Positions 5,709 to 50,742 of a DNA stretch of 64,000 nucleotides are shown in pieces. The stretch's first letter is position 1, and every line of letters begins with the position of its first letter. A model generated the notes under the pieces. The model ran no database searches and was not told where the DNA came from. It saw only the letters and a list, made by a program, of their open reading frames with translations. The translations under genes and the position numbers were made by a program. This DNA comes from Aquisalimonas sp. 2447 (GTDB taxonomy: Bacteria > Pseudomonadota > Gammaproteobacteria > Nitrococcales > Aquisalimonadaceae): NCBI RefSeq assembly GCF_012044895.1, contig NZ_CP050695.1:526501-590500 (forward strand), given 5' to 3'.

Positions 5709-6437
5709 ATGGAACAGCTGGAGCGGATACTGGAAGCCCACGGCGGCGCCCAGCGCTGGCGGGACGCACACGCCGTCATGGCGCGGGTGTCCATGGGCGG
5801 CGTGGGTTTTGCCTCCCGGCTGCAGGCCAACCCGCTGCGTGATGTGGAGATCACCGCGCGCACGGCGTGGCCCGCCGTCACCATGGCGGACTGGCCTTAT
5901 CCCGGCCAGACGGCGGTGTGCGAGCCCAACCGTGCCCGTATCGAGGCCGATGACGGCCGTATCGTGGCGGATCGCAGTGCGCCGGGAGCAACCCTCCGGT
6001 CGCCGTCCCACTGGCTCTGGTGGGACGACCTGGACGTGCTGTACTACACCGCGAACATCCTCTGGCAGACCGTGTGCCTGCCGTTCACTCTGGCGCGTGA
6101 GGGCTGTCGGGTCGAAGAGCTTCCCCCGGTGGACACGCCTGAGGGCAGGCTCCACCCTCTGATGATCGCCTATCCCGCGGACATCCCGGTGCTGCGTGCC
6201 GATCAGGTGCTCTACGCCGACGCCACGGGGCTGGTGCAGCGGATGGATTTCTCGCCGCGATTCGCTTCACCCTGGATGCGGGCCAGCCAGGTGTTCACGG
6301 GCACCGAGAACGTCTCCGGGTTCACCCTCGCCGCCTGTCACCGGATTTACCCCTGCCTTCCCGGCGGCAGGATGTTTGGCATGGCTCCCCTGGGCTGGAT
6401 CGACCTGGATGACCTCAACGTGGTGTGGAACCAGTAA
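5709..6437 (+). CDS. Conserved hypothetical protein (LolA-fold-like?)
   Basis: A 242-residue protein with ATG 5709 and a weak GGGGTAGAGC upstream. The N terminus has no hydrophobic signal, so it should be cytoplasmic. It begins with an E-x-x-L-E-x-H-G-G-x-x-x-W-x-x motif, as in proteins annotated as LolA/outer-membrane-lipoprotein-sorting-like ('leadi..hGG.erw...'). It then has repeated aromatic beta-strand-like segments (S-H-W-L-W-W-D-D-L-D, W-I-D-L-D-D-L-N-V-V-W). I do not recognise a catalytic motif. It is 46 bases downstream of zapE and may be cotranscribed. Function unknown. Confidence 0.6.
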   Translation: MEQLERILEAHGGAQRWRDAHAVMARVSMGGVGFASRLQANPLRDVEITARTAWPAVTMADWPYPGQTAVCEPNRARIEADDGRIVADRSAPGATLRSPSHWLWWDDLDVLYYTANILWQTVCLPFTLAREGCRVEELPPVDTPEGRLHPLMIAYPADIPVLRADQVLYADATGLVQRMDFSPRFASPWMRASQVFTGTENVSGFTLAACHRIYPCLPGGRMFGMAPLGWIDLDDLNVVWNQ

Positions 6438-21174: not shown

Positions 21175-23164
21175 GAGCGCCAGGCGAAGCCTGGTCGCTT
21201 GGGATTGGTGGCATGGAGGCGGCCATGAAATTGCGAGAGGGACCCAGCGGGCCGTTGAGCCCGCCCGGTAGAGGTTGGCCACCAGCCGGAAGCGAGTCTT
21301 GCGCTGCAGTGGGTAACTGCTGTGGTGAAGCGTAGACAGCGAGTGTCCAGGCTGCGTGATTGAGCCCCGAAATCCGCGACATTGTGGGTGCCGACGGTGT
21401 CTGAAGACCGGAAGGCAGTAACGCTGCACTGTAGAGGCCTGGTGTGGTGTGCCCGCCGGGGTCCGAGAGCGGGGCATGGGCACATTGGGGTCCCCCAGGA
21501 ACCTGGGAGGGCCTGTCGTCTCCGCCTAAGAAGTAGACGGTGCGGGCGACCGCTGATCCGCAGTCCGGGCCAGTGGTGGGAGCGTCCTCCTGCTGCTGGA
21601 GCGAAGGCTGAGGGCGCTGCGGCGGTATGGTGCTGCGAGGACAGCCAGAGCGGTGCCAGACGGGCGGCAGGCAGTCGGAGTCTCCCATAGTACCGGAGCA
21701 GCCGGGGAACGCGCCCCAGCGGACCCGGTGAAGGGGAAGGGGAGACCGTGTGAGTGGAGCTGTTGGAGGGACCGATGGCGGAGGCATTGGACTCTGATCT
21801 CATCTCAACGCGATGCCAACAGATAGCGGATCTGGCGCGGCGTCTTCCGGACAGGCCGCTTTTGACGTTGGCCCATCACATTGACGAGGCGTGGTTGCGT
21901 GAGGCGTATCGACGCACGCGCAAGGACGGGGCGCCGGGCGTTGATGGTCGCACGGGTGCCGCCTACGGCGAGGAGCTTGAGGCGAACCTGAGCTCGCTGC
22001 TGGAGCGGGCGAAGTCCGGGGCGTACCGGGCGCCGCCGGTGCGGGGCACCTCGATCCCCAAGGGTGACGGGAGCGAGCGCCGAGCGCTCGGCATTCCGAC
22101 GTTTGAGGACAAGGTGCTCCAGCGGGCGGTGGCGATGGTGCTGGAGGCGGTCTACGAGCCGGAGTTCCACGAGGGCTCGTACGGCTTCCGCCGGGACGCT
22201 CGGCGCACCAGGCGCTGCAGGCGGTCTGGCGGCCGTTGATGGCGATGGGCGGTGGCTGGGTGATTGATCTTGACGTGCGCAAGTTCTTTGACCGGGTCGA
22301 CCATGGTCTGTTGCGGGAGGTGCTGCGTCGGCGGGTACGTGACGGCGTGCTGGTTCGGTTGATCGGCAAATGGTTGAACGCCGGCGTGCTGGAGGAAGGG
22401 CAGTGGCGCCAGCCTGGCGGGGCACCCGCAGGGCGGGGTGATCTCGCCGATGCTCGCCAACATTTTCCTCCACGAGGTGCTGGATACGTGGTTCGAGGAC
22501 AGTGTCCGGCCCCGGTTGCGCGGTGAGGCGCACCTGGTGCGTTTTGCCGACGATGCGCTGCTGGTGTTCGCCTGCGAGAGCGATGCCCGGCGGGTGATGG
22601 AGGTGCTGCCCAAGCGTTTTGCGCGCTACGGGCTGGAACTCCACCCGGAGAAGACCCGGGTTGTGCGGTTCGACCGGCCCGGATCGGGCGGAGGACCGCA
22701 CCCGGAGACCTTCGATTTTCTCGGCTTCACCCACTACTGGGGGCGGTCGAGGCGAGGGCGCTGGTGGTCAAGCGCAAGACGGCGCGGGATCGGCTGCGCC
22801 GGGCCATGCATGCAATCGATCGTTGGTGCTGTGTGATGCGGCATCACCCCGTGGTTGAGCAGTGGCAAGCCCTGAACCGCAGACTCCGGGGCCACTACGC
22901 CTACTTCGGCGTGCGTGGTAACTTTGCAGCGATCGACCAGGTCCGCTCCCAGGCGATGCGCTCCTGGCACCGATGGCTGTCGCGGCGCTCGCAGAAGGCG
23001 GCGATCCCGTGGTCGGAGTTCTCCCGGTTCCTGGAGTGTTACCCGCTCGCCCGGGCCAGGATCTGCGCCACGTAGCGAAGCCACTCACACGAGGAGCCAC
23101 TTGCGGGAAACCCGCACGAGTGGATCTGTGGGGGCCGGCCGGGTAACCGGCCGGCCTACCCGAC
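21175..23164 (+). mobile_element. Group II intron, copy 2 (1,990 bp)
   Basis: It is nearly identical to the intron at 605-2595 from GAGCG to CCCGAC, with the same domain V and the same domain VI branch-point bulge. EBS1 (21401-21406) pairs fully with CTTCAG. EBS2 (21372-21377) pairs five of six with GCGGAC. The differences I found from copy 1 are mostly small indels in G or C runs near 22414-22430, 22650 and 22762, plus A/G at about 22631. The insertion point within the REP is identical to copy 1 while the flanking DNA beyond the REP is unrelated, so this is a true second insertion and not a segmental duplication. Confidence 0.92.
21775..23075 (+). pseudogene. ltrA: Group II intron reverse transcriptase/maturase, frameshifted (copy 2)
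   Basis: The same gene as in copy 1: ATG 21775, RT domain with F-A-D-D, X domain, PLARARI near the end and no endonuclease domain. It carries the same single-base loss near 22190. It adds a two-base loss in the G-T-P-Q-G-G region (about 22414-22430) and a one-base loss near 22762, while the site broken in copy 1 (H-P-E-K-T-R-V-V) is intact here. No copy is complete in this window. A composite of the two would still need the shared frameshift corrected. Confidence 0.85.
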
Positions 23165-43739: not shown

Positions 43740-44471
43740 ATGCGCGTCCCACGCATCCATGTCAGCGGCCCCCTGGAAACCGGCGCGGAGATTGCGCTGG
43801 AGGGGGCTGCCGCCAATCACCTCCGGGTCCTGCGCCTGCGTGTCGGCCACCCCCTGATCGTGTTCGACGGCGCTGGTGTCAGCCACCATGCCCAGGTGGT
43901 TGCCGTGGAAAAGCGCCGCGCAGCCATTCGCGTCCGCGAGGCGCTGCACGAAGCTGCGGAATCGCCGCTGGCCACCACCCTGGTCCAGGGCATCAGCAAG
44001 GGCGACCGCATGGACTGGACCATCCAGAAAGCCGTGGAATTGGGTGTTCACCGCATCGTGCCGGTGATCACTGCCCGTAGCGTGGTCAATACCGAGCCGG
44101 CGCGGCTGCAGAAGAAACATGCCCACTGGCAGGGCGTGGTGGTCAGCGCCTGCGAACAGTGCGGGCGCAACGTGCTGCCCGCTCTGGAGGCGCCCGTGCC
44201 GCTGGCGCAGCAGTGGTCACACCTCCCCGACATCGGGCGCCTGTTTCTGGATCCGGAGGGTGGCGAGCGCCTGAGCACGATGCCGCCGCCCGGGACAGCT
44301 GGCTGCACGCTCCTGGTGGGGCCGGAAGGCGGCCTCAACGACAACGAGGCCGCCGTCGCGCGGGAACACGCGTTCCGGCCCGTCGCCCTGGGCCCGCGGG
44401 TTCTGCGCACGGAAACCGCCGGGGTCACGGCCCTGGCCGCCCTGCAGGTGCTCTGGGGGGACCTGGCCTGA
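43740..44471 (+). CDS. rsmE: 16S rRNA m3U1498 methyltransferase RsmE
   Basis: A 243-residue SPOUT methyltransferase that modifies U1498 of 16S rRNA. The N-terminal PUA-like part begins M-R-V-P-R-I. The SPOUT knot shows G-P-E-G-G-L-N-D-N-E and L-G-P-R-V-L-R-T-E-T-A. ATG 43740 is chosen because the in-frame GTG 43704 would translate the repeat at 43704-43719. It is convergent with metF. Confidence 0.94.
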   Translation: MRVPRIHVSGPLETGAEIALEGAAANHLRVLRLRVGHPLIVFDGAGVSHHAQVVAVEKRRAAIRVREALHEAAESPLATTLVQGISKGDRMDWTIQKAVELGVHRIVPVITARSVVNTEPARLQKKHAHWQGVVVSACEQCGRNVLPALEAPVPLAQQWSHLPDIGRLFLDPEGGERLSTMPPPGTAGCTLLVGPEGGLNDNEAAVAREHAFRPVALGPRVLRTETAGVTALAALQVLWGDLA

Positions 44472-44517
44472 GGCGGGGGCGCCCGCCGCCTGCCGCCCCG
44501 CCGCTGACACGCCTACG

Positions 44518-44549
44518 AAAAAACCCCGCCAGCCTTGCGGCCGACAGGG
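44518..44549 (-). terminator. Intrinsic terminator of the GSMT-to-metF operon
   Basis: Read on the minus strand, an 11-bp stem with some G-U pairs (CCCTGTCGGCC with GGCTGGCGGGG, GCAA loop) is followed by six Ts, 34 bases after the metF stop. It marks the end of the betaine/SAM-cycle transcript. Confidence 0.82.
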
Positions 44550-44583
44550 CTCAATGGCATCGGCATGCTGCCGTCAGTGACGG

Positions 44584-45468
44584 TCAGTCGGCGGCCTTGG
44601 CTATCTTCTGGGACAGGCCCAGGTTGTTCCAGATGGCCTCCGACGCCTTGGCCTGGTTCAGCGTGTAGAAGTGCAGGCCGGGTGCGCCGGCATCCAGCAG
44701 GTCCGCGCACATCTGCGTGACCACGTCGATGCCGAAGGCCTGCATGGACTCCTTGTCGCCCTTGGCGTCATAGGCTTCCAGGCGCTTGCGCAGCCAGCGC
44801 GGAATGTCCGCACCGCACATGTCGGAGAACCGGGCCAGCTGCTGGAAGTTCACGATGGGCATGATGCCCGGCACGATGGGGATGGTCACCCCCATCTTCT
44901 CGCAGCTTTCCACGAAGCGGTAATAGCCCTCCGGCGCAAAGAAGTACTGGCTCATGGCGCTGTCCGCGCCGGCCTCCACCTTGCGCTTGAAGTTCTCCAG
45001 GTCGCTGAAGGCATCCGTGGCTTCCGGGTGGATCTCCGGATAGCAGCCCACTTCGATGTGGAAGTGGTCGCCGTGCTCCTGGCGGATGAACTCCACCAGC
45101 TCGTTGGCGTACTTGAAGTGGCCCGGGCCACCACCGGTACCGGACGGCATGTCGCCGCGCAGGGCGACGATGTTGCGGATACCGTTGTCGCGATAGCGGT
45201 TCAGCAGCTCACGGATGCTGTCCGGCGTGGCGTCGATGCAGGACAGGTGCGGTGCCACGTCGATGCCGGAGCGCTTCTGGATGTCGATCACCGTCTCGAA
45301 CGTGCGCTCGCGCGTGGAGCCCCCCGCGCCGAAGGTCACCGAGAACAGGCGCGGGCCCAGCGCCTGCAGGCGCTCGCGGGTCTTGCGCAGCCGCTCTTCC
45401 CCCTCGTCGTTCTTGGGCGGGAAGAACTCGAAACTGAAAACCGGTGAGTGTTTTTTCTGGGATTCCAT
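44584..45468 (-). CDS. metF: 5,10-methylenetetrahydrofolate reductase
   Basis: A 294-residue flavoprotein that makes 5-methyl-THF, the methyl donor for remethylating homocysteine. F-S-F-E-F-F-P-P-K near the N terminus and L-S-C-I-D-A-T, A-L-R-G-D-M-P are family markers. M-E-S-Q-K-K-H at 45468 follows G-G-G-G-G-T-G. It is last in the minus-strand operon after ahcY, 118 bases downstream, with its own terminator. Confidence 0.95.
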   Translation of the reverse strand: MESQKKHSPVFSFEFFPPKNDEGEERLRKTRERLQALGPRLFSVTFGAGGSTRERTFETVIDIQKRSGIDVAPHLSCIDATPDSIRELLNRYRDNGIRNIVALRGDMPSGTGGGPGHFKYANELVEFIRQEHGDHFHIEVGCYPEIHPEATDAFSDLENFKRKVEAGADSAMSQYFFAPEGYYRFVESCEKMGVTIPIVPGIMPIVNFQQLARFSDMCGADIPRWLRKRLEAYDAKGDKESMQAFGIDVVTQMCADLLDAGAPGLHFYTLNQAKASEAIWNNLGLSQKIAKAAD

Positions 45469-45586
45469 AATCACCCCCGTGATTCGGGATTGGCCGCGCG
45501 GGCCGGCGGTTTGCCGGCCCGCTGGCAGGGGTGGCAACGCGGCGGCCTCCGCCGCCCGTTGCGCACCCCAGGCGTGAACACGCCGA

Positions 45587-46993
<1,407 letters not shown>

Positions 46994-47016
46994 TGTTGCT
47001 GACTCCGATTTCCTTG

Positions 47017-47090
47017 GTAGCGCCGTTAGTGAGAGTCGGCATCCGGCTGAGCCTGGCAGGCGAGGCCTGTTGCAGCGCTCCTCAACCGGA
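47017..47090 (-). promoter_or_regulatory. SAH riboswitch
   Basis: On the minus strand, about 25 to 100 bases before the ahcY start, stand the conserved blocks GAGGAGCGCTGCAAC, GCCAGGCTC and AACGGCGCT in the right order and spacing. AGCGC pairs with the GCGCT of the last block. This is the SAH-sensing RNA that raises expression of SAH-recycling genes when SAH accumulates. A purine-rich A-A-G-G-A-A-A and G-G-A-G just before ahcY would be the controlled ribosome site. Confidence 0.9.
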
Positions 47091-47092
47091 CG

Positions 47093-47147
47093 GCCGGCCT
47101 CCATGCGAGGCCGGCAACCCGAGGCGTCACCGCACGGGGTGACGCCT
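47093..47147 (-). other. Two hairpins between metK and the SAH riboswitch
   Basis: A 9-bp stem GCCGGCCTC/GAGGCCGGC at 47093-47115 and a 10-bp stem AGGCGTCACC/GGTGACGCCT with a 6-nt loop at 47122-47147 lie directly upstream of the riboswitch. Neither has a U-tract. They may stabilise the metK mRNA end or act as a processing site between metK and ahcY. Confidence 0.55.
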
Positions 47148-47216
47148 GTCAAATACTAGCTGACCACCGGGCACGCCGCAGGTTCCCGGCGTGTCGGCGG
47201 TCCGGTCACCGTCGGC

Positions 47217-48377
47217 TCAGAGGCCGGCGGCGTCCTTCAGGGCAGCGGCCTTGTCGGTGCGCTCCCAGGTGAACTCCTCGTCTTCGCGACCGAAGTGGCC
47301 GTAGGCGGCCGTCTTGGAGTAGATCGGACGCAGCAGGTCGAGGGTGTTGACGATGCCGAACGGACGCAGATCGAACTGATCGCGCACGATCTGCTCGATC
47401 TTGTTCTCGTCGATCTTGGCGGTGCCGAAGGTCTCGACCATCACGGACGTGGGCTCGGCCACGCCGATGGCGTAGGAGAGCTGCACTTCGCACTTGCTGG
47501 CCAGGCCGGCGGCGACCACGTTCTTGGCCACGTAGCGCGCGGCGTAGGCAGCGGAGCGGTCCACCTTGGACGGGTCCTTGCCGGAGAAGGCACCGCCACC
47601 GTGACGGGCCATGCCGCCATAGGTGTCGACGATGATCTTCCGGCCGGTCAGGCCGCAGTCACCCATCGGCCCGCCGACCACGAAGCGGCCGGTGGGGTTG
47701 ATGTGGAACTTGGTGTTGTTGTCGATCCACTTGGACGGCAGCACCGGCTTGATGATCTCTTCCATCACCGCTTCGTGGATCTCGTTGTCGCTGACGTCGT
47801 CGGAGTGCTGGGTGGACAGCACCACGGCGTCGACGCCCACGGCCTGATCGTCCTCGTAGCGCAGGGTGACCTGGCTCTTGGCGTCCGGGCGCAGCCACTT
47901 CAGCTTGCCGTTGGCCAGCAGGGTGGCCTGCTGCTCCACCAGGCGGTGGGCATAGTTGATGGCCGCCGGCATGTAGACGTCGGTCTCGTCGCAGGCGTAG
48001 CCGAACATGATGCCCTGGTCACCGGCGCCCTGCTCCTCGGGGAGCTTGCGCTCGACGCCCTGGTTGATGTCCGGGGACTGCTTGCCCAGCGCGTTGATGA
48101 AGGCGCAGGTGTCCGCATCGAAGCCCATGTCGGAGGAGGTGTAGCCGATGCGCTTGGTGGTGGCGCGGGCGATGTCCTCGTAGGGCACGTTGGCGGTGGT
48201 CTTGAGCTCGCCGGCCAGCATGATCATGCCGGTGGTGGTCAGGGTCTCGCAGGCCACCTTGGCCTTGGGATCCTGCTCCAGAATGGCATCAAGCACGGCG
48301 TCGGAGATCTGGTCGGCCATTTTGTCCGGATGACCGGCAGAGACGGACTCCGAGGTAAACATGAAAGACTTGCTCAT
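47217..48377 (-). CDS. metK: S-adenosylmethionine synthetase
   Basis: A 386-residue enzyme making SAM from methionine and [27 protein letters not shown] and G-G-G-A-F-S-G-K-D signatures are intact. ATG 48377 follows A-A-A-G-G-A-G-T. It lies directly downstream of SDMT, supplying the three SAM molecules consumed per betaine made. Elsewhere metK is usually not next to methyltransferase genes, so the placement is a functional link. Confidence 0.97.
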
Positions 48378-48418
48378 GAGGACTCCTTTAACTGTCGTGT
48401 TTCAGGTGATCAATGCCT

Positions 48419-48445
48419 CGGCGCGCCGCCCGAGGCGGCGCGCCG
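48419..48445 (-). other. Strong intercistronic hairpin between SDMT and metK
   Basis: A perfect 12-bp stem (CGGCGCGCCGCC with GGCGGCGCGCCG) and a 3-nt loop sit between the SDMT stop and metK. No U-run follows, so I read it as an mRNA stabilising or partial-termination element rather than a full terminator. Confidence 0.6.
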
Positions 48446-48459
48446 ACGGGTCAGGCTGT

Positions 48460-49296
48460 TCAGGCCTTGCGGAAGCGGAAGATGCCCCAGGCCAGGTAAC
48501 CGCTGTTACCGCCGTTGACCCAGTGCTGCAGGCCCTGTTTCATCCGCTCGATATACTCGTTGGAGATCAGGCCCTCGAGGCTCGCCTCGCGGCGCTTGGT
48601 CTCCTCCAGCACCCGGCCGTAGTGGCGCGGCAGCTGGTGGGAGTGGTCCTCGAAGCCGATCTCCTCGAGACCGAATTTCTTCGCGGTCTCGCGGTAGAAC
48701 TTCGGAGAACCCAGGGTCTCCAGGTGGATGCGGTCCAGGATGGGCTGCAATACGCCTTCGGGGCAGTCATCCGTCTGCATCGGGTCGGTGAAGATGAACA
48801 CGCCGCCCGGCTTGAGCACCCGCGCCACTTCCTCGACCACCTTTTCGCGGTTGCCGCTGTGGAGGAAGGAATCCTGGGACCACACCACGTCGAAGTGGTT
48901 GTCCGGATAGGGAATTTCCTCGAAGCTCGCGTCCAGCACCTCGATCAGGTTGTCCAGCTGGGCCGCCTTGTTCATCTCGCGGTCGCGCTCGTTCTCCACC
49001 TCGGAGAGGTTGAGCGCCGCCACCGGGCAGCCGAAGGTCTTGGCGAGATAGCGGGCGGTGCCGCCGTAGCCCGCGCCCAGGTCGATGACCTTATGCTCCG
49101 GCGTCAGCTCGCCCAGCATGTCGGCCATGTGGGCCACGGTGCGGCGGCTGGCATCGGCAATGGGCTCTTCATCGCTCTGGTAGAGACCGACGTGAATATC
49201 CTCGCCGCCCCACACGTTGTGGTAGAAGCGGTCCGCGTCGTCACTGTTGTAGTACTCGCGCGCCGTGGCTACGGCGCCGGTGTAATCGTTACCCAT
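48460..49296 (-). CDS. Sarcosine/dimethylglycine N-methyltransferase (SDMT)
   Basis: A 278-residue class I methyltransferase with SAM motif V-I-D-L-G-A-G-Y-G-G at 70-79. Sequence features such as A-R-E-Y-Y-N-S-D-D-A-D-R-F-Y and I-W/V-W-G-G-E-D-I-H-V-G-L-Y are characteristic of SDMT from halophiles (Halorhodospira-type). It methylates sarcosine to dimethylglycine and on to betaine. Its ATG overlaps the GSMT stop by one base (TAATG), so the two enzymes are translated together. Confidence 0.93.
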   Translation of the reverse strand: MGNDYTGAVATAREYYNSDDADRFYHNVWGGEDIHVGLYQSDEEPIADASRRTVAHMADMLGELTPEHKVIDLGAGYGGTARYLAKTFGCPVAALNLSEVENERDREMNKAAQLDNLIEVLDASFEEIPYPDNHFDVVWSQDSFLHSGNREKVVEEVARVLKPGGVFIFTDPMQTDDCPEGVLQPILDRIHLETLGSPKFYRETAKKFGLEEIGFEDHSHQLPRHYGRVLEETKRREASLEGLISNEYIERMKQGLQHWVNGGNSGYLAWGIFRFRKA

Positions 49297-50105
49297 TAGT
49301 TGTCCTCCCGGTATTCCTTCTCGGCGACGTGGATGAAGAAGTCCGGCTCGGCGTCGCGGTAGGTTTCCTTGAAGTCACCGTAGGTCTGCACGTCCTGGAA
49401 CCCGACCTCGCGCATCAGGCGGCGTGTATACGCCTTGCGCAGCGGGAACATGTTCAGGTGGAACACGGCCTTGTCCGGGAACTCATAGCGGAAGCGGGTC
49501 AGGCCGGAGTCCACATACTCGGGGTAGACCGACACGTCATTGCCGCAGTAGTAGTAAGTGTGCTTGCTGGAGTAGCCGTGATCCAGGATGGAGTCGTAGT
49601 TGCGCTGGTCGAGGATCAGGATGCCGTCGTGGTTCAGCGCGGAGTAGAACTCGGCCAGGGTCTTGCGACGGTCGTTCTCGTCGAACAGGTGCGTGAACGA
49701 GTTGCCGAGGCAGATCACGGCGTCATAGCGACCATGGATGTCGCGGTTCAGCTGGCGCCAGTCCGACTGCACGGTGCGCAGGATGTGTCCGCGCTTGCGG
49801 CCGTTTTCGAACGCCTTGGCGAGCATGTCGGCGCTGCCGTCGGCGCTGACCACGTCAAAGCCGGCCTCGATCAGGCGCACCGAGTGGAAGCCGGTGCCGC
49901 AGGCGACGTCGAGAATGCGCTTGCAGCCACGCTCCTTCAGCGTCTGGATGAAGAAATCACCCTCGCTCTCCGCGCGGCTGTCCCAATCAATCAGGTCGTC
50001 CCACTTGTCGACGAAGCCTTCGTTGTACTCCGCTGCGTAGTGGTCGCTGTCGCGACATTCTTCCGGCTTGTCACCGAATGCCTGGTCCGTTGCTGTCGAA
50101 GACAT
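49296..50105 (-). CDS. Glycine/sarcosine N-methyltransferase (GSMT)
   Basis: A 269-residue class I methyltransferase with SAM motif I-L-D-V-A-C-G-T-G-F-H at 64-74. It converts glycine to sarcosine and dimethylglycine, the first steps of de novo glycine betaine synthesis in extreme halophiles. The N-terminal H-Y-x-x-E-Y-x-x-x-F-V-x-K-W-D-x-L-I-D-W motif is typical. ATG 50105 follows GGGAGGT. It is the first gene of the operon GSMT-SDMT-metK-ahcY-metF. Confidence 0.93.
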   Translation of the reverse strand: MSSTATDQAFGDKPEECRDSDHYAAEYNEGFVDKWDDLIDWDSRAESEGDFFIQTLKERGCKRILDVACGTGFHSVRLIEAGFDVVSADGSADMLAKAFENGRKRGHILRTVQSDWRQLNRDIHGRYDAVICLGNSFTHLFDENDRRKTLAEFYSALNHDGILILDQRNYDSILDHGYSSKHTYYYCGNDVSVYPEYVDSGLTRFRYEFPDKAVFHLNMFPLRKAYTRRLMREVGFQDVQTYGDFKETYRDAEPDFFIHVAEKEYREDN

Positions 50106-50742
50106 TGTGTTACCTCCCACCGTCCATATTGATGAAGGCACAGGCGGCATCAGGAACAAGCCCTGACGAGCGTGCATCCGTCGAATGGATGCACGAATGC
50201 GCAATCCGGCCTGAACAGTCACGCCGGACGCCTGCGCCATTGCTGAACAGATCGCACTGGTGGTGTGCCATCTGCCGCCATTTTTGCGGTGCCTGGCCAA
50301 GCCAGTGCCATCCGCACTCGAAAACAGTTGCTTTTTTGGCTGCAGAGAAGGATGGGGATACCTGGTGATGCAGGTCATCCAGCTCCGGCAGCCCGAAGGA
50401 GACGCAACGCCTCTGCCTTGCCAGGGGCGGTGCGTAAAACCGACATACGGGTCGTCTATGTCATGTGACGAGCGCCGCTATGTGGCGAAGGGCAGCACTC
50501 CGATGCTGCGGTGCTCCGTTTTGATCACCCCCTAACGTACCGTGTTCTGCAGAGATTTCAACCTCTGTTCCCCGCGTGTCACCGAAATGTCACCCCATGG
50601 CAGGTACTTGTGCGTGTTTCCGGGTGCCGGGCGCCGCCTTGCCCGCAGGTCAACAATTCGAGACAATTCACGGCTTTCGGCGGGGGTTGCCGATCCAACC
50701 CGGCCGTTTCCTCACCTGCCCGCAAACCGGAGATCACCATTC
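50106..50742. other. 637-bp divergent intergenic region (GSMT / tkt)
   Basis: This is the longest gene-free stretch in the window. It must hold promoters for both the betaine operon and tkt-epd-pgk. A perfect 9-bp inverted repeat CGTGCATCC/GGATGCACG with a 7-nt loop lies at 50171-50195, within the probable 5' leader of GSMT. I recognise no riboswitch consensus and no coding sequence. The frame open from 50542 ahead of tkt lacks homology and I do not call it. Confidence 0.5.

Follow-up and report, generated by a model that had tools for sequence, protein, structure and literature searches.

The locus described here raises the question of whom its RNA sensor serves. A SAH riboswitch stands between genes for betaine synthesis and ahcY, and it may belong to betaine synthesis in particular or to the methyl cycle in general. 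We analysed a window of 64,000 nucleotides from Aquisalimonas sp. 2447, and all positions refer to this whole stretch. The best explanation overall, which we consider highly probable, is that the ahcY leader carries a genuine SAH riboswitch. It would form part of an old methyl-cycle module, joined by gsmt-sdmt in Aquisalimonas.

The minus strand presents the order gsmt-sdmt-metK-[riboswitch]-ahcY-metF, with tkt divergent upstream. The gsmt gene (glycine/sarcosine N-methyltransferase, 49296-50105) scores 502.8 bits with NF051855 (cut-off 350), and its start was set at the ATG at 50105, downstream of GGGAGG. The start of sdmt (sarcosine/dimethylglycine N-methyltransferase, 48460-49296) overlaps the gsmt stop. 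Its score with NF041675 (471.7 bits) is under the curated cut-off of 550; this is by far the top family, with the runner-up at 76.7 bits, and the predicted product is assigned as SDMT-like. The metK gene (S-adenosylmethionine synthetase, 47217-48377) reaches 627.8 bits with TIGR01034, above the cut-off. Likewise, ahcY (S-adenosylhomocysteine hydrolase, 45587-46993; 468 amino acids from the ATG at 46993) and metF (methylenetetrahydrofolate reductase, 44584-45468; start inferred at the ATG at 45468) are above the cut-offs of TIGR00936 (613.9 bits, scored on the longer ORF) and TIGR00676 (347.1 bits). A probable Shine-Dalgarno motif of ahcY, GGAG, lies at 47003-47006. Downstream of metF, folding indicates a hairpin followed by six T (44518-44552), a probable intrinsic terminator on the same strand. 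The riboswitch is found where it had been predicted, as the leader of ahcY between gsmt-sdmt-metK and ahcY-metF. On the 5' side of gsmt, a block at about 220-330 nt (within 50106-50450, minus strand) is conserved in five Aquisalimonas, while the nearer leader is variable; it is a possible osmotic control region. Elsewhere in the window, two matches to group II intron D1D4-6 (RF02005) lie 20.6 kb apart on the plus strand (686-901 and 21256-21471), both with 153.1 bits.

Sequence and predicted fold identify the element as a genuine SAH riboswitch, ordinary in itself. The original prediction placed it at 47017-47090, recognized its conserved blocks 5' of ahcY on the minus strand, and proposed a scan with the Rfam model. 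All three blocks are present. The cmscan search of the window gave a full-length match to RF01057 (model positions 1-78 of 78) at 47089-47011 on the minus strand, and the predicted ends differ from those of the model by only a few bases. The score is 55.9 bits against a gathering score of 37 (E = 1.3e-7 for 64 kb and 4227 families). This is the sole RF01057 match across the 3.97-Mb Aquisalimonas genome, and 14 control genomes gave none.

The helices P1 and P2 are supported by strong covariation. When 31 relatives were aligned with MAFFT, pairing was found in 94.6% of 614 cells, against 77.5% in shuffles and 34-44% in slid versions of the same alignment. Two-sided changes occur at 12 of 20 pairs in this alignment, and at 12 of 13 pairs among 61 model-aligned matches, whose alignment was itself guided by the structure. 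The pseudoknot joins the P1-P2 junction to the 3' GGCGCU block, and it shows conservation rather than covariation. Its core of five pairs is (nearly) invariant; AGCGC at 47075-47079 pairs with GCGCT at 47019-47023 (minus strand) in 31 of 31 sequences. The C that normally comes next and closes a further pair is an A in the window. The 5' strand of P1 is extended in Aquisalimonas to 11 pairs (47082-47092, with its partner at 47050-47040, minus strand). Immediately 5' of the aptamer, a GC-rich hairpin (P0, 47093-47115, minus strand) is present in all four Aquisalimonas examined, with a differing stem sequence. It has 94.4% of its cells paired and one two-sided change in these four sequences only, and 25 of 500 shuffles reach the pairing level of P0 and P1 counted together. 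This hairpin could isolate the riboswitch from the upstream mRNA.

The original prediction also supposed that SAH switches on ahcY and metF within one transcript. A single transcript from gsmt to metF is plausible. The internal gaps of the window (82, 223 and 118 nt) contain strong GC-rich hairpins and no T-run of four or more, and the hairpin with six T follows metF. However, the promoter scan of 44400-50700 found none (1.0 expected). The terminator scan of the same interval gave four terminator-like sites, all on the plus strand (4.3 expected), and the site after metF was not among them. Of 50 loci compared, 26 have the metK stop at most 40 nt 5' of the aptamer; the other 11 of the 61 rows were set aside because metK was missing or the gap exceeded 400 nt. 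In these 26, a promoter would fit only inside metK, so read-through from metK is likely there. The corresponding gap is 127 nt in the window and 122-132 nt across four Aquisalimonas, and ahcY of the window may have its own promoter there. In Burkholderia cenocepacia, the available sections of one report describe a mapped transcript whose 5'UTR contains a SAH riboswitch, despite a co-directional preceding gene (PMC4603805).

The level of control is probably translational. In the window, 17 nt separate the end of the aptamer from the ahcY ATG, with no terminator. The distance is at most 20 nt in 48 of 60 loci, and a T-run of four or more between aptamer and ahcY start is absent in 55 of the 60. 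This short spacing and the lack of T-runs make a terminator unlikely and translational control likely. Under such control ahcY would be regulated directly, and any effect on metF, whose start lies 118 nt past ahcY, would have to come through polarity or mRNA decay. The predicted effect on ahcY agrees with reports, in the accessible parts of PMC7057144, that SAH riboswitches raise ahcY expression, whereas the effect on metF is doubtful. Accessibility of the Shine-Dalgarno motif, compared by folding with and without bound aptamer, rose by more than 0.1 in 14 of 58 loci and fell in 17, with no consistent direction (three of 61 rows dropped; window, -0.15). The direction of control therefore rests on the literature. 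In Pseudomonas syringae, SAH uncovers the translation start, which is otherwise hidden (reviewed in PMC10992897). By eye, Halomonas-type leaders present an apparent hairpin that would share bases with the pseudoknot strand and mask the Shine-Dalgarno motif. Four loci of one genus, g4 (L053, L054, L061 and L049), have a riboswitch-ahcY spacer of 41-66 nt instead of the usual 13-17 nt, and an additional inverted repeat precedes their Shine-Dalgarno motif.

We then compared the locus with the genomes of its order, Nitrococcales. The riboswitch occurs in 36 of 54 genomes and GSMT above the cut-off in 27 of 54; some of the genome surveys used stricter filters, which weak matches can escape, and some genomes are fragmentary. 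The riboswitch is present in 14 of the 27 GSMT genomes and in 22 of the 27 others. The presence of the riboswitch is thus not tied to that of betaine synthesis. In 30 of the 36 riboswitch genomes, metK-riboswitch-ahcY stands without gsmt at the locus. These 30 loci have MetK and AhcY in every case and a tkt homologue in 28, and eight of the 30 genomes carry GSMT above the cut-off elsewhere. The linked form, gsmt-sdmt-metK-riboswitch-ahcY, is found in the other six (four Aquisalimonas, Arhodomonas and G045), with gsmt about 2.2 kb upstream. A riboswitch-ahcY pair without upstream gsmt is also present in Ectothiorhodospira, Thioalkalivibrio, Thiohalobacter, Alloalcanivorax and the native loci of Halomonadaceae. 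The pair occurs more widely than its link with betaine genes, and it is probably older. So, the location between betaine genes and ahcY was correctly predicted, but the view of it as placed inside a betaine operon does not hold as something specific to betaine. The methyl-cycle module is the wider arrangement, and the betaine genes joined it.

The link is not confined to Aquisalimonas. GSMT loci were taken from genome contigs as the best 80 of 493 confirmed relatives. With a model of the aptamer, eight of these best 80 contain the riboswitch; a ninth match, with 15.8 bits, is at chance level. Seven of the eight have the order gsmt-sdmt-metK-riboswitch-ahcY: three Aquisalimonas, Arhodomonas, Aidingimonas halophila, A. 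lacisalsi and Halomonas ramblicola. The eighth is Alloalcanivorax, with the betaine genes 3' of metF. There (L097), the order metK-riboswitch-ahcY-metF-gsmt-sdmt made the betaine genes a candidate for control by the riboswitch, which was rejected on an apparent hairpin and T-run, seen by eye, in the metF-gsmt gap (5738-6001). AhcY lies inside 19 of the best 80 of 493 loci, many of which end at contig edges. Twelve loci from other phyla, drawn from the same best 80, showed no riboswitch near gsmt in the Rfam search and one SRP RNA only. Halorhodospira and the isolate WFHF3C12 have gsmt-sdmt-metK-ahcY and no detectable riboswitch. The aptamer model gives at best 15.8 bits there, a chance level, and Rfam gives no RF01057 with E up to 5 in six loci of this type. 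By tblastn ends, the metK-ahcY gap is at most 46 nt in five of six such loci, too short to hold the aptamer. Among the Halorhodospira genomes, we take G019 to be Halorhodospira halophila SL1.

Four Halomonadaceae have a second, foreign metK-riboswitch-ahcY joined to gsmt-sdmt, in addition to a native ahcY. Both Aidingimonas species possess two riboswitches, one in the native tkt-metK-riboswitch-ahcY and one in the cassette. Their native AhcY is 50-51% identical to that of the window, and the cassette copy 72%. In a sample of 151 Halomonadaceae genomes, RF01057 is found in 57 and GSMT in four. Exactly three of the 151 have two riboswitches (G059, G060 and G177), all among the four with GSMT. 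The fourth, G075, has gsmt and an extra metK, with ahcY of the native type only. H. ramblicola and Halomonas LBP4 each carry a foreign and a native ahcY, and the LBP4 cassette lacks the riboswitch. Downstream of the A. halophila cassette lies a gene with a weak MTHFR-like match (PF02219, 26.5 bits, cut-off 24). The G177 cassette (L192, 6202-7986) presents both methyltransferases fused in a two-domain ORF of 594 amino acids at the GSMT position, preceded by a glycerate kinase gene.

The AhcY tree places the five cassette copies among genomes of the window's order, with a branch of length 1.09 between them and the native copies of Halomonadaceae. In the 27-row test, cassette and native AhcY as one clade were rejected (p-AU 5e-6), and so was a single origin of the five cassette copies (p-AU 0.003). 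The cassette AhcY form two sets, Aidingimonas with G177 and H. ramblicola with LBP4, the latter nearest to G038. Among the aptamers, those of the cassettes are mutual nearest (78-81%) or, in H. ramblicola, nearest to g9 (76%), a genus of the window's order that is presumably Spiribacter. The native Aidingimonas aptamers are also mutual nearest (73%). The GSMT tree agrees with the AhcY tree (support 82-86), and the split between cassette and native copies is shallower in the MetK tree. The full AhcY, MetK and GSMT trees are quick ones with SH-aLRT support only. Arhodomonas MetK groups with the MetK of other betaine clusters (eight rows, support 99), and Aquisalimonas MetK is of its own family's type. 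This difference suggests, with moderate support, that the betaine genes met riboswitch-ahcY separately in the two genera. At the tkt-metK junction, the betaine genes may have docked several times, or they may be ancestral there and have moved away in many lineages. The link between riboswitch-ahcY and betaine genes recurs and seems to have moved between families.

Other readings have to be weighed against a working riboswitch in a module that betaine genes joined. One of them is that the aptamer still scores and no longer switches in Aquisalimonas. The closing pair of the pseudoknot is lost in three of four Aquisalimonas, and G004 departs further at one base of the conserved AACGG block. However, 27 columns show the same base in 90% or more of the 61 matches, and the window keeps 26 of these, the closing pseudoknot base being the exception. 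The lengthened P1 is paired in 97.7% of cells in the four Aquisalimonas genomes, and the score stands 18.9 bits above the cut-off. Such decay is very unlikely. A transcriptional switch, in which SAH blocks termination before ahcY, would account for joint control of ahcY and metF as the original prediction had it. We regard it as most improbable given the 17 nt between aptamer and ATG, the absence of any T-run of four or more in the whole metK-ahcY gap, and the same lack between aptamer and ATG in nearly all relatives.

The neighbourhood itself may be fortuitous, and this is the alternative with most in its favour, although we rate it clearly below even. The riboswitch would then exert general SAH control of ahcY from its own promoter, and the upstream betaine genes would gain nothing. 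The many modules without gsmt in the order point this way, as do the genomes with GSMT elsewhere and the Halorhodospira and WFHF3C12 clusters, which have ahcY beside betaine genes and no detectable riboswitch. The promoter scan assigned none to the betaine or the ahcY part, and the metK-aptamer gap of the four Aquisalimonas is also consistent with it. On the other hand, the foreign Halomonadaceae cassettes with ahcY kept the riboswitch in four of five cases, despite a native ahcY in the same cell. We retain the reading of a genuine riboswitch in an old module, joined by betaine genes. A broader proposal is offered tentatively, at somewhat less than even confidence. In it, gsmt-sdmt-metK-[SAH riboswitch]-ahcY would be an osmolyte cassette that can pass between genomes with its own SAH sensor. 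The old module and betaine genes would have combined into it on more than one occasion, and Halomonadaceae would have received it at least twice. Their housekeeping methyl cycle would then be accompanied by another, self-regulated one that serves betaine. Three SAH are released for each betaine, and in bulk synthesis this would be the reason that the riboswitch is retained.

The old module consists of tkt, divergent, and metK-riboswitch-ahcY-metF; in Aquisalimonas, gsmt-sdmt stand between tkt and metK. SAH binding would stabilise P1, P2 and the pseudoknot and lead to more ahcY translation, and the level of SAH hydrolase would rise with SAH. The gene set would thus supply SAM (metK), spend it (gsmt-sdmt) and clear SAH with an amount of AhcY set by SAH. 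We infer that the RNA binds SAH, at which level and in which direction it acts, that transcription reads through from gsmt or metK, and that there is a benefit under osmotic stress. Betaine synthesis by glycine methylation consumes three SAM for each betaine, and does so at osmolyte scale. The need to clear the SAH made by GSMT and SDMT is reasonable. A direct benefit to betaine synthesis is less likely. The GSMT and SDMT enzymes of H. halochloris tolerate SAH, with 50% inhibition or Ki near 400-500 uM (table in PMC10992897), and the aptamer affinity is 32 nM, as given in the accessible parts of PMC7057144. Betaine synthesis would slow only at SAH levels far above those that saturate the sensor. 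By this inference across species, the benefit more likely goes to the cell's other methyltransferases than to GSMT and SDMT. With a SAM maker, a SAM spender and a SAH-sensed SAH hydrolase side by side, the setting is a testable case. Aidingimonas, which has native and betaine-linked metK-riboswitch-ahcY in one cell, would suit a test of riboswitch co-option for osmolyte flux. For the engineering of betaine in crops or bacteria, the arrangement suggests co-expressing such an AhcY with its sensor.

The riboswitch is of a known type, and its betaine-gene setting appears new and repeated by transfer. Our literature search found no report linking a SAH riboswitch to betaine genes in the text open to it, with subscription literature mostly outside its reach. 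The five-gene betaine cluster of Halorhodospira (GMT-DMT-MAT-SAHase-MTHFR) is called the only such case in Gammaproteobacteria in the available sections of PMC7824335, which do not mention riboswitches. Aquisalimonas has the same five genes in the same order. However, it has the riboswitch, and none was found in the Halorhodospira clusters searched. In Ectothiorhodospira and Thioalkalivibrio, gsmt-sdmt are likewise joined to metK (available sections of PMC7824335 and our own loci), but the cluster lacks ahcY, and riboswitch-ahcY lies elsewhere in the four genomes examined. The SAH riboswitch of Nitrococcus mobilis has been used as a SAH biosensor (Su et al. 2016, as cited in the accessible parts of PMC10992897). 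This species (G036) belongs to the same order and also has metK-riboswitch-ahcY (L044). In contrast, its gsmt-sdmt lie elsewhere in the genome (L084), and the window aptamer is 62% identical to its own (49 of 79). The accessible text of PMC4239095 describes ahcY-metF as the core SAH riboswitch regulon of Proteobacteria, with metK not under control. The window shares with that regulon the aptamer, the target gene and the following metF, and metK is not 3' of the riboswitch. It differs in having gsmt-sdmt-metK upstream; the same text contains 'betaine' once (for BhmT) and 'sarcosine' not at all. One genome of the same class, G055, has a riboswitch match 5' of metK, in the order riboswitch-metK-ahcY-metF (L068), and SAH riboswitches are said in that text not to control metK.
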